This document shows positions 16,467 through 36,182 of a DNA stretch of 36,441 bases, piece after piece. The stretch comes from Lachnoclostridium sp. GTDB taxonomy: Bacteria > Bacteroidota > Bacteroidia > Bacteroidales > Muribaculaceae. The stretch lies in NCBI GenBank assembly GCA_023667185.1, contig JAMPAP010000008.1, positions 1 through 36,441 on the forward strand, written 5' to 3'. Every line of letters starts with the position of its first letter. Positions within the stretch are counted from its first letter, which is position 1. The translations under genes and the position numbers were made by a program. Below the pieces are notes generated by a model, which saw only the letters and a program-made list of their open reading frames with translations, did no database searches and was not told the origin of the DNA.

Positions 16467-17810
16467 ATGAAACGAATTTACTTGCTGCTATGTTCGGCAG
16501 CCGTTGCCGGTGGAATGTATGGTGCTGATTTTGAGGATGCTCAGACGGCTGTTGATAATATGCGAATAGGATGGAATCTCGGGAATACGCTTGACAGCAA
16601 CAGCAGTGACCCCGCAAATATGTGGATAGAGAAATATAACGACTGCACGCCGGCTGATTTTGAGACGGCATGGGGTCAGCCCGCCGCAACGCGTGAACTG
16701 ATCCATATGTTTAAAGAAGCCGGATTTAATGCCATCCGTGTCCCGGTGACCTGGTATCCGCATATCGGTAACACCATCGAGCTGATCAAGAGCAACGATG
16801 GTGTATGGGACAAGTCGCAGTGGGAGGGCTATGAGGTTGATCCTGAGTGGATGGCCAGAGTTCACGAGGTAGTGGATTATGTGATCGACGAGGGAATGTA
16901 CTGCCTCCTTAATGTACACCACGATACCGGAGGCGCTGATGCAGCATGGATCGTAGCCGACCCCGAGGTCTACAATCAGCAAAAAGACCGCTTCGAAAGC
17001 CTCTGGACACAAATCGCAACTGAATTTCGCGACTATGACGAACACCTCCTTTTCGAGGGCTACAACGAGATGCTCGACAAGTATAAATCCTGGTGCTTCG
17101 CCACATTCAACACCTCATCAAAATATATCAAGGCTGATGCTGAAGCCGCCTACGGAGCTGTCAACAGCTTCGCGCAAAGCTTCGTAAATGCCGTCAGAGC
17201 AACCGGAGGCAACAACGCATGCCGCAACCTCGTGATAAATTCTTACGGAGCTTGCAACGGTTCGGGAACCTGGAACAGCCATCTTGACGACCCGCTGATT
17301 AATCTCAATTTGCCCGAAGATGATGCCCGGAATCATATCATCTTTGACGTCCATTCTTACTTTGACGTCACCAGCCTCAGCAGCGCTAAAAAAGATGTCG
17401 ATGCCGTGATAAGCGATGTCACCAAATATCTTAAGTCAAAAGGCGCACCCGTAATATTCAGCGAGTGGGGCACTTCCACCGGTGATATCGATAAATATCA
17501 CAGCAACCTTTGCCAATATGCCCGTTACTATGTGGAGAAAGCCAAGGCCGCCGGAATGGCTACATTTTACTGGATGGTGCTTTCAGAGATGGAAGATCGT
17601 GCGGTACCCACATGGAGTGTGCCCGATCTTAAGGATGCTATCGTAAAAGGCTATTATGGAGATGAAGGTTACGGATCGCTCGACGATGTCATCATTGACG
17701 CAGAAACTCTCACCGAAGCCCCCGTCTACAACCTGCAGGGCATCCGCGTCGGCGGATCACTCACTCCCGGCATTTATCTTCAGGCAGGCAAGAAGTTCAT
17801 CGTGAGATAG
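16467..17810 (+). CDS. Exported glycoside hydrolase family 5 endoglucanase
   Basis: A 447-residue beta-glycanase of the cellulase (GH5) type. After a signal peptide (MKRIYLLLCSAAVAGGMYGA) the TIM barrel begins with RIGWNLGNTLDS. FNAIRVPVTW and LLNVHHDTG follow, then the acid/base Glu201 in EGYNEM and the nucleophile Glu333 in VIFSEWGT. The C-terminal 30 residues (VYNLQGIRV...PGIYLQAGKKFIVR) resemble the short sorting-type tails of Bacteroidetes secreted proteins. An ATG at 16440 would add nine residues before the signal peptide, but it lies only 4 nt past the -7 box, so 16467 is preferred. Substrate (cellulose, beta-glucan, xyloglucan or mannan) is not determinable. Confidence 0.9.
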   Translation: MKRIYLLLCSAAVAGGMYGADFEDAQTAVDNMRIGWNLGNTLDSNSSDPANMWIEKYNDCTPADFETAWGQPAATRELIHMFKEAGFNAIRVPVTWYPHIGNTIELIKSNDGVWDKSQWEGYEVDPEWMARVHEVVDYVIDEGMYCLLNVHHDTGGADAAWIVADPEVYNQQKDRFESLWTQIATEFRDYDEHLLFEGYNEMLDKYKSWCFATFNTSSKYIKADAEAAYGAVNSFAQSFVNAVRATGGNNACRNLVINSYGACNGSGTWNSHLDDPLINLNLPEDDARNHIIFDVHSYFDVTSLSSAKKDVDAVISDVTKYLKSKGAPVIFSEWGTSTGDIDKYHSNLCQYARYYVEKAKAAGMATFYWMVLSEMEDRAVPTWSVPDLKDAIVKGYYGDEGYGSLDDVIIDAETLTEAPVYNLQGIRVGGSLTPGIYLQAGKKFIVR

Positions 17811-17910
17811 TTTTTAGTTTTTAGTTTTAGTTTTTAGTTTTTAGTTACGACTAATAACTAACGACTAATAACTAACGACTAATAACTAACGACTAACGAC
17901 TAACAACTAA
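17811..17910. repeat. Heptamer tandem repeats in two opposed orientations
   Basis: Directly after the GH5 stop lie five TTTTTAG-type units (17811-17844, one unit a T short). They are followed from 17848 to 17910 by nine exact 7-bp units alternating CGACTAA and TAACTAA and ending with CAACTAA. The second block is roughly the reverse complement of the first, so the RNA could form a long irregular hairpin. No gene is visible. It separates the GH5 gene from the accessory cluster. Confidence 0.9.
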
Positions 17911-17945
17911 AAACCAATATGGTGATGAAATAACGTTAGATTGTT

Positions 17946-17971: not shown

Positions 17972-18682
17972 ATGAAATCTCTCCTTTCAAGAATACTGCT
18001 ATTATTTTGCCTGTTTATTCCGGCACATAGCTACGCTTATCGTCATCTGTCGCCTTATTCCTATTGTGGAGGTGACCCGGTTAATTGTGTGGATCCTTCG
18101 GGGCGGGATGTCGTAGTGCTGAATTATGGTTATTTGGATGATCAGCATACAGCCATACTTATTCAAGACGAGAACGGGAAATGGCTGTATTATTCTATCA
18201 ATGGCAATAATGTATATTTCTCCGGAGAACACACGGGTGGCCGGGAGTTTAACGATATGGCAGTCGGATCATGGGAATCTCCGCAGGAATTTATGAATTC
18301 CGAATATAATGTCAGGCCGGAAGACGATAAGGGAAAGGGTGATCCGTCGGTTAACAATTATGGTTTTGACGAATGTTATCTTATACCATCTACGCCGGAG
18401 CAGGATGAGATTATGCGAAACTGTTTTACTGAAGCTGCTAAAACTGAGTACAACCTGATTAATAACAACTGCACCACCATAGTTCAGGATGTATTGATTA
18501 AAGCCGGAATTCCTGTGTCAAAGCCAAGATTCGAGCCTTCATACATACCTGTTGCCACGCCTTATGGGATAGTAGATGTCTACAACGGAACTCAAATGCA
18601 ATGTGATGTAATACTTTTACCAAGCGAGGCTTTTAAATCTATAAAATCTTATAATCCTAACGGTACACCTATAACAAAATAA
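17972..18682 (+). CDS. Sec-exported RHS-core-tail protein with putative permuted papain-like domain
   Basis: A 236-residue protein. Residues 1-22 are a signal peptide (MKSLLSRILLLFCLFIPAHS then YA). Straight after it, residues 24-46 carry the terminal motif of an RHS-repeat-associated core (YRHLSPYSYCGGDPVNCVDP then SGRD), which in RHS proteins marks the junction to the toxin. The remaining domain has His59 in DDQHTAILI, a WLYYSING strand and Cys167 in NLINNNCTTIVQDVLIKAGI. The His-before-Cys order suggests a circularly permuted NlpC/P60 (papain-like) fold; this is inference. A peptidase, amidase or lipid-acting effector is possible. No RHS repeat domain precedes it. It heads a tight cluster with gaps of 12, 4, 13 and 9 nt and is followed by small membrane proteins that could be its immunity. 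Confidence 0.72.
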   Translation: MKSLLSRILLLFCLFIPAHSYAYRHLSPYSYCGGDPVNCVDPSGRDVVVLNYGYLDDQHTAILIQDENGKWLYYSINGNNVYFSGEHTGGREFNDMAVGSWESPQEFMNSEYNVRPEDDKGKGDPSVNNYGFDECYLIPSTPEQDEIMRNCFTEAAKTEYNLINNNCTTIVQDVLIKAGIPVSKPRFEPSYIPVATPYGIVDVYNGTQMQCDVILLPSEAFKSIKSYNPNGTPITK

Positions 18683-18694
18683 TTTTTAAAGACT

Positions 18695-19009
18695 ATGAAC
18701 AGATATTCTAAAACTTTGATAAGATATATATTCTGTCTGTTAGCTGCTTACCTATTCCTATATTTGGGATTTGCAGGTATACTTACTTTTTTCACAATAT
18801 GTATATGGCTCAGTAATTGGCCTCTTGGAAAGTTAGTTGCAATAGTATCAACTTTGATGCTTTACATAATTTATATTGCTGTAAACCATGTGGAAATAGC
18901 AAAAATTACAGGACAGAAAACTGTAATATATTTTGAGACTCTTCTGTTACTATCACTTGTTCTGTTGTTTGGGTGTCATGTTTACCTGGATATTTGTAGG
19001 ATTAGTTAA
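18695..19009 (+). CDS. Small membrane protein, candidate immunity protein (copy 1)
   Basis: A 104-residue protein with about three hydrophobic segments (near 10-35, 45-65 and 78-100). I recognise no named family. It begins 12 nt after the RHS-tail gene. Its last 45 residues resemble the next gene: both have NH, then I, G, KTV, FETLL and LSL at matching positions (about 18 of 44 identical by eye). Base composition is strongly AT-rich compared with the housekeeping genes around it. Position and size suggest an immunity protein for the upstream exported effector, acting in the inner membrane; this is inference. Confidence 0.65.
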   Translation: MNRYSKTLIRYIFCLLAAYLFLYLGFAGILTFFTICIWLSNWPLGKLVAIVSTLMLYIIYIAVNHVEIAKITGQKTVIYFETLLLLSLVLLFGCHVYLDICRIS

Positions 19010-19013
19010 CGTT

Positions 19014-19316
19014 ATGGATATTATGTCAGAGAAGAAACAAAATCATTGGAAAACGTTTGCCAATATATTACTTTATGGAGCGTTTACAGGTATCTATTTG
19101 AAGTCTGCATTAGATATGTGTCAATTCGATCCTTTTATTTCATTTTTTTTTAGAACAATTCCCTATGGATTATTGTATTTTTTGATTAACCATATTTTAA
19201 TAAAAAGAGTGGTGGGTTTAAAGACTGTGGTTATATTTGAAACCTTGTTGATGCTCTCTCTCTTTATTGTTTGTTGGTGCATTACTACGTTAGAATATTT
19301 CCATAAATGGGACTGA
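19014..19316 (+). CDS. Small membrane protein, candidate immunity protein (copy 2)
   Basis: A 100-residue membrane protein starting 4 nt after copy 1; an alternative Met lies three codons downstream at 19023. A frame open from 18933 overlaps copy 1 but has no support as a start. Its C-terminal part (INHILIKRVVGLKTVVIFET and LLMLSLF) is clearly related to copy 1, while the N-terminal half has diverged. Tandem, diverged copies of small membrane genes after a toxin-like gene are typical of immunity arrays. No named family is recognised. Confidence 0.65.
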   Translation: MDIMSEKKQNHWKTFANILLYGAFTGIYLKSALDMCQFDPFISFFFRTIPYGLLYFLINHILIKRVVGLKTVVIFETLLMLSLFIVCWCITTLEYFHKWD

Positions 19317-19329
19317 TTACTTTGCGTAT

Positions 19330-20014
19330 ATGAAGAAAGCGACTCTCCTTATAATGATGATATTCCTACAGTTACCAGTTTGTGCTCAGACAAAGATCGC
19401 CGAGGATTATTATGTGTCAGCCTTTAATGAAATGTCAAATATGCTTGCAGGGCGTGATACATCATCAATAAAGAGCTGTATATCTTGCTGAATGGGCTTA
19501 TCTGGAAGGAAAGCTGGACTATAAAGCTGACTTTTGTGATGAAATTGACCGGATTGAATATATTTATGTATATGCGGGCACAAGTGTTTGGGAAGATGTT
19601 GTAGAGGATCTTATTCAGTTGGGTGGAATATCACCCCAATATTCGAAGGCAATCGGTAATGCCAGAACCCTATCCGAGGAATTGGGTGATCAAGAGATTT
19701 CATTTGTAGGCCATTCAATGGGCGGCGGTCAGGCGGCGGCAGCAAGTATGGCAACCGGATATGCAGCTATAACATTCAATCCTGCGGCTCTTAGTTTAGG
19801 TACAATGATAATTAATTCATTACATGGACGAGGAGATATTACAAATTATATAAGCACTTGTCCGGGTCCGTTTGGGACAACTATCGTTTCAGATTATGTA
19901 ACTATCTTGCAAAATATAAATAAGATATATGCACCGGGAACAAATATACCGGTTATGGTAAATACATTTCCCTCCCATGGAATTGATGTAATAGTTAATG
20001 CACTTAGAAAATAA
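19330..20014 (+). pseudogene. Frameshifted exported lipase-like (class 3 type) gene
   Basis: An ATG at 19330 opens with a good signal peptide (MKKATLLIMMIFLQLPVCAQ), but the frame stops at 19489-19491. From about 19472 the next frame continues a coherent protein (RAVYLAEWAYLEG...) to 20014. One extra base near AATAAAGAG (19467-19475) explains the break. The joined product would have about 228 residues, with the lipase-3-like segment YVYAGTSVWEDVVEDL, a nucleophile elbow GHSMGGG and a following ITFNPAALS strand, as in lipase-type C-terminal domains of Bacteroidetes RHS toxins. SHGIDVIVNAL near the end could supply the catalytic His. It is a recent pseudogene or a sequencing error; no classic slippery site for programmed shifting is seen. 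Confidence 0.75.
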
Positions 20015-20023
20015 TTAACAGAA

Positions 20024-20635
20024 ATGGCAGATGTAGTAAAATATGTAAATAAGATCGGCTGTTTCTTGGGCCTGATCTTTATATGCTTATGTTTGATGGA
20101 TTGTCTGGGATTGTTTTATTTCGGAATGACTCATCTTACAAAAAAAGATCTTGTCTGGACAAATGGACTGAATCAATATAAAACAGCTACCTTTGTTTCC
20201 AATAAAGGAAATACATCGAAGTTAAATATTTCAGGAATTACAGTTTACAATGAAACGAATCCATTTTATATCAGTACAGCTAGTCATAGATATTATGAGG
20301 CTAACGCTTGGTGTGACATCGAGGTTGAAGACTCTACACGTATTTTGGAAGGAAGTTATTCTGTGAAGAGGAAAATTGGCAATGATTCGTTAATGATTTC
20401 GGGGCATCTCGGTGCGGCATTTTGTCTTGAATATTTTCCGATTGTACCGGTGACTTATCAGATAGGCGACAAGATAATAGATAATTGTGTAATATTTGAT
20501 ACGATAAATGCCCCTAACTCAAAGCATTGGAAAAACAAGCCGGAGCAGAAGATGGAAAAATTTGTAATATCCCGCGACTACGGGCTGATATATTATCGGC
20601 TTTATGATGGCGAGGAGTTCACCCGCGTCTTTTAA
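20024..20635 (+). CDS. Membrane-anchored protein of unknown function, candidate immunity protein
   Basis: A 203-residue protein with one strongly hydrophobic N-terminal segment (about 11-35) and a mixed, beta-rich remainder of about 165 residues likely facing the periplasm. I recognise no family. It starts 9 nt after the lipase-like pseudogene, so by position it is the candidate antidote for that lipase. The frame is intact although its presumed partner is broken. A weak 7-bp hairpin (20636-20654) follows its stop without a T-run. Confidence 0.6.
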   Translation: MADVVKYVNKIGCFLGLIFICLCLMDCLGLFYFGMTHLTKKDLVWTNGLNQYKTATFVSNKGNTSKLNISGITVYNETNPFYISTASHRYYEANAWCDIEVEDSTRILEGSYSVKRKIGNDSLMISGHLGAAFCLEYFPIVPVTYQIGDKIIDNCVIFDTINAPNSKHWKNKPEQKMEKFVISRDYGLIYYRLYDGEEFTRVF

Positions 20636-35426: not shown

Positions 35427-36182
35427 ATGAAATCTTATTCTTTACTTAACTCCAAACAGAAGCGTTGGCTTGAATCTTACTGCCTGAAGGCGGGTATCAA
35501 GCTGAATATAAAGAAGTTTGATGGCATAATATTTATATTGAAGAGCGGTTGTCAGTGGAGATTATTGCCTCCGTATTACGGTAAATGGAAAAGCGTTTAT
35601 CACTATTTCAGAGGGATCAGTGAGTGTCAATGGTTTAACAGGATGCTCAAACAATTGCTCAACGAGCGGCGTAAACGCATTAAGGGAGATCGGGGACAAA
35701 ATCCAAGCGTAGCAATCATTGACAGTCAAAGCTCAAAGAGCGGCTTGCCTCGTTCGCAGAAAGGGATTGACGGCAACAAGCGAGTGAAGGGCATTAAGCG
35801 GCATATTGCGGTAGATAGCGATGGTTTGCCGCTTGCCGTGGCGGTGACAACAGCTAATGTGCATGACTCAAAAGGTGCATATCCACTGATAGCAGACCTG
35901 TCAATTCAATATAAATCCATCAAAACGATTAAGGCCGACAATGGATACAAAGGGAAGCTGACCGAGACCGTAAAGGACGTTGTATCAATTGATATGCAAT
36001 GTGTTAAATCAAACTATGGCACATCCGAGTTTATTCCGTTAGAAGGTCGGTGGGTTGTGGAGCGAACCATTGCATGGCTTGACAACTTCAGGCGTTTGTG
36101 TCGCAACTATGAACAGTTGCTTTCTACGGCAAAAGCTATGGTCAGAATGGCATTCTTAATGATATTGATTAAGCATATATAG
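35427..36182 (+). CDS. IS5-family DDE transposase
   Basis: A 251-residue single-frame transposase that cuts and joins the ends of its own element. The N-terminal region (about 1-75, SGCQWRLLPPYYGKWKSVYH) is the DUF4096-like DNA-binding part. The catalytic residues are Asp99 (AIIDSQSSK), Asp171 (IKADNGYKG) and Glu212 (RWVVERTIAWL), the last in the Y/R-x-E form typical of IS5. There is no frameshift, unlike the two-frame IS427 branch. The start follows directly on the foldable 5' region. Confidence 0.93.
   Translation: MKSYSLLNSKQKRWLESYCLKAGIKLNIKKFDGIIFILKSGCQWRLLPPYYGKWKSVYHYFRGISECQWFNRMLKQLLNERRKRIKGDRGQNPSVAIIDSQSSKSGLPRSQKGIDGNKRVKGIKRHIAVDSDGLPLAVAVTTANVHDSKGAYPLIADLSIQYKSIKTIKADNGYKGKLTETVKDVVSIDMQCVKSNYGTSEFIPLEGRWVVERTIAWLDNFRRLCRNYEQLLSTAKAMVRMAFLMILIKHI

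Follow-up and report, generated by a model that had tools for sequence, protein, structure and literature searches.

A displaced and partly decayed copy of a probable Sec-exported polymorphic toxin system in a Muribaculaceae genome

The 36,441-nucleotide (nt) stretch analysed here (the window; contig JAMPAP010000008.1 of assembly GCA_023667185.1, lineage Muribaculaceae) carries at 17972..20635 a compact cluster of five reading units, all on the forward strand and separated by gaps of 12, 4, 13 and 9 nt, as the initial annotation of this DNA, made from the sequence alone, had described. The computed composition bore out the AT-richness of the region, and a pattern search the heptamer tandem repeats at its left border (17808..17914); the heptamer pattern was found at 2 of 213 loci, both of which are the window itself, and no role was found for it. 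The first gene, here called B (17972..18682), encodes a stand-alone mini-RHS protein of 236 amino acids (aa), in which a signal peptide (residues 1-22), an RHS core tail (23-44) and a C-terminal domain, CT1 (45-236, 192 residues), were delimited by eye. Two candidate immunity genes for CT1 follow, one at 18695..19009 encoding 104 aa with three hydrophobic helices, and one at 19014..19316; these small membrane proteins had been called related and are indeed paralogues (46% identity over 37 aa, E 2.8e-9). The cluster continues with a relic of a transglutaminase-like gene, here called A (19330..19558; signal peptide and first ~77 residues, with a frameshift or stop near 19482-19491), which runs on into a truncated lipase-type RHS C-terminal domain (19556..20014; last ~150 residues). 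It ends with an intact gene for a membrane-anchored protein of 203 aa (20024..20635), the candidate immunity protein for the lipase-type toxin.

The A-lipase chimera was searched as separate pieces. In the piece at 19490-20014, residues 1-23 match residues 55-77 of protein A with 83% identity, and residues 23-173 match residues 196-348 of a lipase-type mini-RHS protein with 51% identity; A fragments were matched in the window at 19333-19482 and 19469-19564. Since A-like segments cover 19333-19564, the signal peptide of the broken unit belongs to A. The claim that both effector-like genes start with Sec signal peptides thus holds for the first gene and fails for the second, and the idea of two Sec-exported effectors in the window was rejected. 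Likewise, the frameshifted lipase-like gene of the initial annotation does contain a lipase-type domain, but it is not a single gene. This domain keeps a GHSMGGG motif and matched SA1320_fam at 2.5e-11, which is below the cut-off of the model; it lacks both an RHS tail of its own and its initial part. Over 195 residues the last gene shares 41% identity with the gene that follows an intact lipase-type toxin, and a homologue of it lies at the same locus as a lipase relative in 10 of 19 cases (E<=0.01; loci 2-3.5 kb long). Judged from sequence, the cluster is therefore composed of one intact toxin-like gene, two candidate immunity genes and a decayed second module.

In its predicted structure, CT1 has a permuted papain-like fold of the permuted NlpC/P60 type (TseH/YiiX), with the His ahead of the Cys; H59 and C167 are invariant in a seven-row alignment. 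Searches of solved structures by sequence with A and B gave weak matches only, and weak Pfam matches to DUF5048, DUF905, GYF_2, LSR and similar models led nowhere. Pfam and NCBIfam scans of the window B found no PAAR or VgrG domain and, at E<=1, no MafB N-terminal domain (DUF1020), and no type IX secretion sorting domain was reported for it or for the six related proteins scanned. CT1 was found at 23 loci including the window. Among the 20 of these with at least 500 nt downstream, 19 have a protein with at least two hydrophobic helices directly behind CT1, so that an unlinking of these genes in relatives was not seen.

The assembly that contains the window measures 2.29 Mb in 43 contigs and is 93% complete. 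Three RHS core matches were found in it (E<=1), namely the window B, a paralogue with 56% identity and an open frame of 262 aa on contig C11, and a protein on contig C22. None of the three lies in a full-length RHS frame. The C22 protein (L005 5724-7298) is a 524-aa signal-peptide-headed RHS fragment bearing CT1. Two small membrane proteins are also encoded behind both paralogues. The assembly encodes SprA of the type IX system; Bacteroidetes TssC had no match in it, and the control genomes were equally silent. Elsewhere in the window, the region at 35427-36182 resembles by eye a transposase gene of the insertion sequence type.

In relatives, unlike in the window, B usually follows A. Within a family sample of 297 genomes, A was found in 22 (26 matches). 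Sixteen close copies (E<1e-100; the one in G256 with an internal stop) immediately precede a type-1 mini-RHS gene, composed of a signal peptide and the tail. Four long but distant copies precede a second mini-RHS type, which has ~100 additional residues and a lipase-type domain. Fragments or broken copies make up the remaining six matches, two of them in the window and one beside a mini-RHS gene (L043). Counted from the other side, a motif picked out 19 type-1 mini-RHS genes in the window and 42 further stretches; 16 of them have a full-length or nearly full-length A upstream, one has an A fragment, and two, the window B and a short copy (L076), have no A. In a search of 395 genomes of the phylum, which scored up to five candidates per genome and hence gives a lower bound, A was present in at least 8.

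A genome scan with A alone yielded 77 loci, one of them without an A reading frame, in taxa including Muribaculaceae, Alistipes, Dysgonomonas, Bacteroides, Prevotella, Chitinophaga, Niastella, Chryseobacterium, Thermoflexibacter and Balneolaceae. Usable loci were defined by an A of at least 300 aa and at least 1,000 nt downstream; 62 passed and 14 failed. An RHS-tail gene (B) lies behind A at 51 of the 62, mostly in Bacteroidota, with its start at -101 to +264 nt and a 4-nt overlap of A and B in 14 loci. Two of the 14 loci below the cut (L145, L205) also have an RHS-tail gene behind A. The pairs occur in Muribaculaceae, Alistipes, Bacteroides, Chitinophaga and one metagenome-assembled genome (MAG) of Balneolaceae (L190). 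The RHS-tail model matched 73 of 1,148 reading frames in the A loci, of which 51 are the counted B genes. These B proteins are 155-406 aa long, 45 of the 51 have a signal-peptide-like start, and some carry an N-terminal domain of ~100 residues. A second A-like gene, whole or partial, stands near or beside the pair in 8 of the 51 loci (L166, L170, L186, L187, L190, L191, L193, L201) and is the only neighbour family seen at more than four of the 51 units. At L152 a second mini-RHS-like gene lies 265 nt past the third gene, suggesting tandem units.

Sequence features place A in the transglutaminase-like superfamily, and most A proteins have a signal-peptide-like start. Of 59 A proteins, 19 matched Transglut_core2 (E<=0.01; best 4.1e-6). 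Cys146 and His172 do not vary among the 59, and Glu192 is at least 90% conserved, which suggests that A is an active enzyme. The predicted overall fold of A is menin-like; none of the 59 proteins matched Menin (PF05053) by sequence at E<=0.01.

The C-terminal domains of B are exchangeable parts on a constant N-terminal portion. Clustering (blastp E<=1e-3 over at least 60 aa) divided the 51 B proteins into 22 C-terminal clusters. The downstream gene, defined as the longest frame of 70 aa or more whose start falls -60 to +250 nt after B, changes with the domain: downstream genes are alike in 37 of 105 same-cluster pairs and in 0 of 1,170 cross-cluster pairs. DNA comparison of three pairs whose toxins differ gave identities of 0.82-0.88 for A, 0.78-0.90 for the signal peptide and 0.81-0.90 for the tail, followed by a fall to at most 0.53. 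In one of two same-cluster pairs identity never drops below 0.97 across the whole domain, and in the other it keeps to 0.80-0.98 for ~240 nt before it drops. The collapse of identity just after the RHS tail points to cassette exchange at the tail. A hydrophobic N-terminal segment was found in 46 of the 51 downstream genes and in 99 of 199 control genes (at least 200 aa, same loci), which suggests the cell envelope as the site of action.

The window locus, although partly decayed, genuinely belongs to a variant of polymorphic toxin system that is widespread. More specifically, we give a probability of roughly 0.6 to the reading that Bacteroidota possess a Sec-exported polymorphic toxin system with the usual gene order A-B-I, I being the immunity gene, and that the cluster is a copy of it which has been displaced and has partly decayed. 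The anatomy of this system, the linkage of its genes and their co-variation come directly from the sequence comparisons. For toxicity, delivery and the role of A we infer the following. B would be a toxin exported by Sec, and I, mostly with an N-terminal hydrophobic segment, would shield the producer from a toxin active in the cell envelope. The genes for toxin and immunity would be swapped together by recombination at the RHS tail, and A may recognise this tail as a step towards processing, activating or anchoring B. The window B carries a permuted papain-like (TseH-like) domain together with two candidate immunity genes, while the second module downstream was probably deleted down to the A-lipase chimera, its immunity gene being left. 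The suggestion of a small stand-alone export toxin system thus agrees well with a common signal-peptide and RHS-tail header followed by differing C-terminal domains and co-varying candidate immunity genes; the cluster does not comprise two working effectors, and the partner A could not be seen by the initial annotation.

Several observations weigh against this interpretation. The window B has no A upstream, and the only long A of the genome (L004 7058-8801, contig C11) has no in-frame ATG, GTG or TTG before its signal-peptide-like region, so this copy may be inactive or have an unusual start, and A may not work in the window strain. The structural model of CT1 is of moderate quality (mean predicted local distance difference test score 68.9). 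One locus (L049) has CT1 without any frame of at least 70 aa close downstream, and another (L153) has a lipoprotein-like gene behind it. B is missing behind A at 11 of the 62 usable loci, all with distant A relatives and including both Chryseobacterium loci and Balneola L192. The size cut for usable loci was chosen after the loci had been seen, and the RHS-tail model was built from 27 tails located behind A. Read from the start codon used, six of the 51 B and four of the 51 A proteins did not pass the signal-peptide-like cut. In 68 of the 105 same-cluster pairs the downstream genes have no detectable similarity. Finally, the survey counts are not independent events because 18 of the 51 B proteins fall into just two clusters, the largest ones.

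B could also be a fragment of a full-length RHS gene that came to lie behind a signal peptide by chance, an orphan cassette serving only as a donor of toxin and immunity sequence. CT1 is indeed found on full-length RHS frames in relatives, and cassette-like RHS fragments occur in the same family (L058, L069, L072, L073, L079). Classic silent RHS orphan cassettes, however, lack a signal peptide and lie behind a full-length rhs gene, whereas by its sequence B has a signal peptide and its assembly contains no full-length RHS match. The frequent signal-peptide-like start of B, its coupling to A and the spread of the pairs from Muribaculaceae to Bacteroides, Chitinophaga and the Balneolaceae MAG likewise speak against it. 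We consider this explanation improbable, and a silent store of RHS C-terminal cassettes, also proposed in the initial annotation, fits less well and was rejected as the main account. As a separate observation, a genome with no match to A at E<=1e-5 (G286) carries at L058 3123-6203 tandem signal-peptide-headed longer RHS fragments that share one header and differ in their C-terminal domains, one of which is CT1.

It is far less probable still that B is a housekeeping enzyme of the envelope, a cell-wall amidase or lipid acyltransferase with the small membrane proteins as its subunits. The fold of CT1 is common to YiiX and PLAAT3, proteins not known as toxins, and this would suit such an enzyme. 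Against it stand the 22 C-terminal clusters that follow one kind of tail, the position of CT1 at the tip of RHS frames, the co-variation of the downstream genes and a patchy presence, as 45 of 297 family-sample genomes match B, many through the header alone. This account was also rejected as the main one. As for A within the A-B-I system, it may, with less than even odds, be an anchor or scaffold binding the RHS tail instead of a processing enzyme; the conserved Cys, His and Glu point to an active enzyme.

A large shell is generally regarded as necessary for RHS toxins. In B the shell is gone, the tail next to the toxin is kept and a second exported protein travels along, so that the purpose of the conserved tail becomes testable. 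The A-B-I arrangement offers a simple Sec-dependent toxin system for Bacteroidota. It is possible, though rather doubtful, that it forms a distinct undescribed class of polymorphic toxins across this phylum, in which an exported, catalytically competent menin-fold A takes up the conserved RHS tail in its pocket and processes or anchors B, the tail of ~20 residues and A together replacing the RHS shell.

No description of the A-B pair was found in the open-access PubMed Central literature searched (titles, abstract starts and selected passages), and a separate A gene was found neither in passages of PMC3482391 nor in the portion of PMC4287609 consulted. Nearest in plan is MafA-MafB-MafI of Neisseria as presented in parts of PMC4287609, where an upstream accessory gene is frequent, the secreted toxin has a constant N-terminus and a variable end, the cognate immunity gene lies directly behind it, and Maf islands hold alternative C-terminal cassettes. 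In contrast to that system, no MafB N-terminal domain was reported for the scanned B proteins, whose constant part is an RHS tail, A is transglutaminase-like whereas MafA is a lipoprotein, and the hosts belong to another phylum. With the RHS polymorphic toxins, as treated in passages of PMC3482391, B shares the RHS core tail, a C-terminal domain swapped together with the downstream gene, and CT1 itself; it differs in having no RHS shell, its own signal peptide and start, the partner A, and downstream genes mostly with an N-terminal hydrophobic segment. The same passages describe Sec-exported polymorphic toxins and RHS-fused transglutaminase domains that have lost at least one catalytic residue (PMC3482391). 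The latter resemble A in a transglutaminase-like domain after a signal peptide and in the association with RHS toxins, but A is a separate gene that keeps Cys and His. CT1 is 15% identical to TseH of the TseH/TsiH pair of Vibrio cholerae (PDB 6v98), a predicted amidase effector according to part of PMC6099711, with another carrier and delivery. The menin family is called solely eukaryotic in a section of a review (PMC10318531), whereas A is bacterial and, by its sequence, exported; it is 6-8% identical to menin (PDB 4gq6, 3u84) and keeps the Cys that human menin lacks, and some menin family members are said to keep the triad (PMC10318531). The menin-like predicted fold of A bears on the origin of the human protein menin; should the distinct class outlined above, with its catalytically competent menin-fold A, be real, the menin architecture would have a bacterial counterpart with an intact active site.
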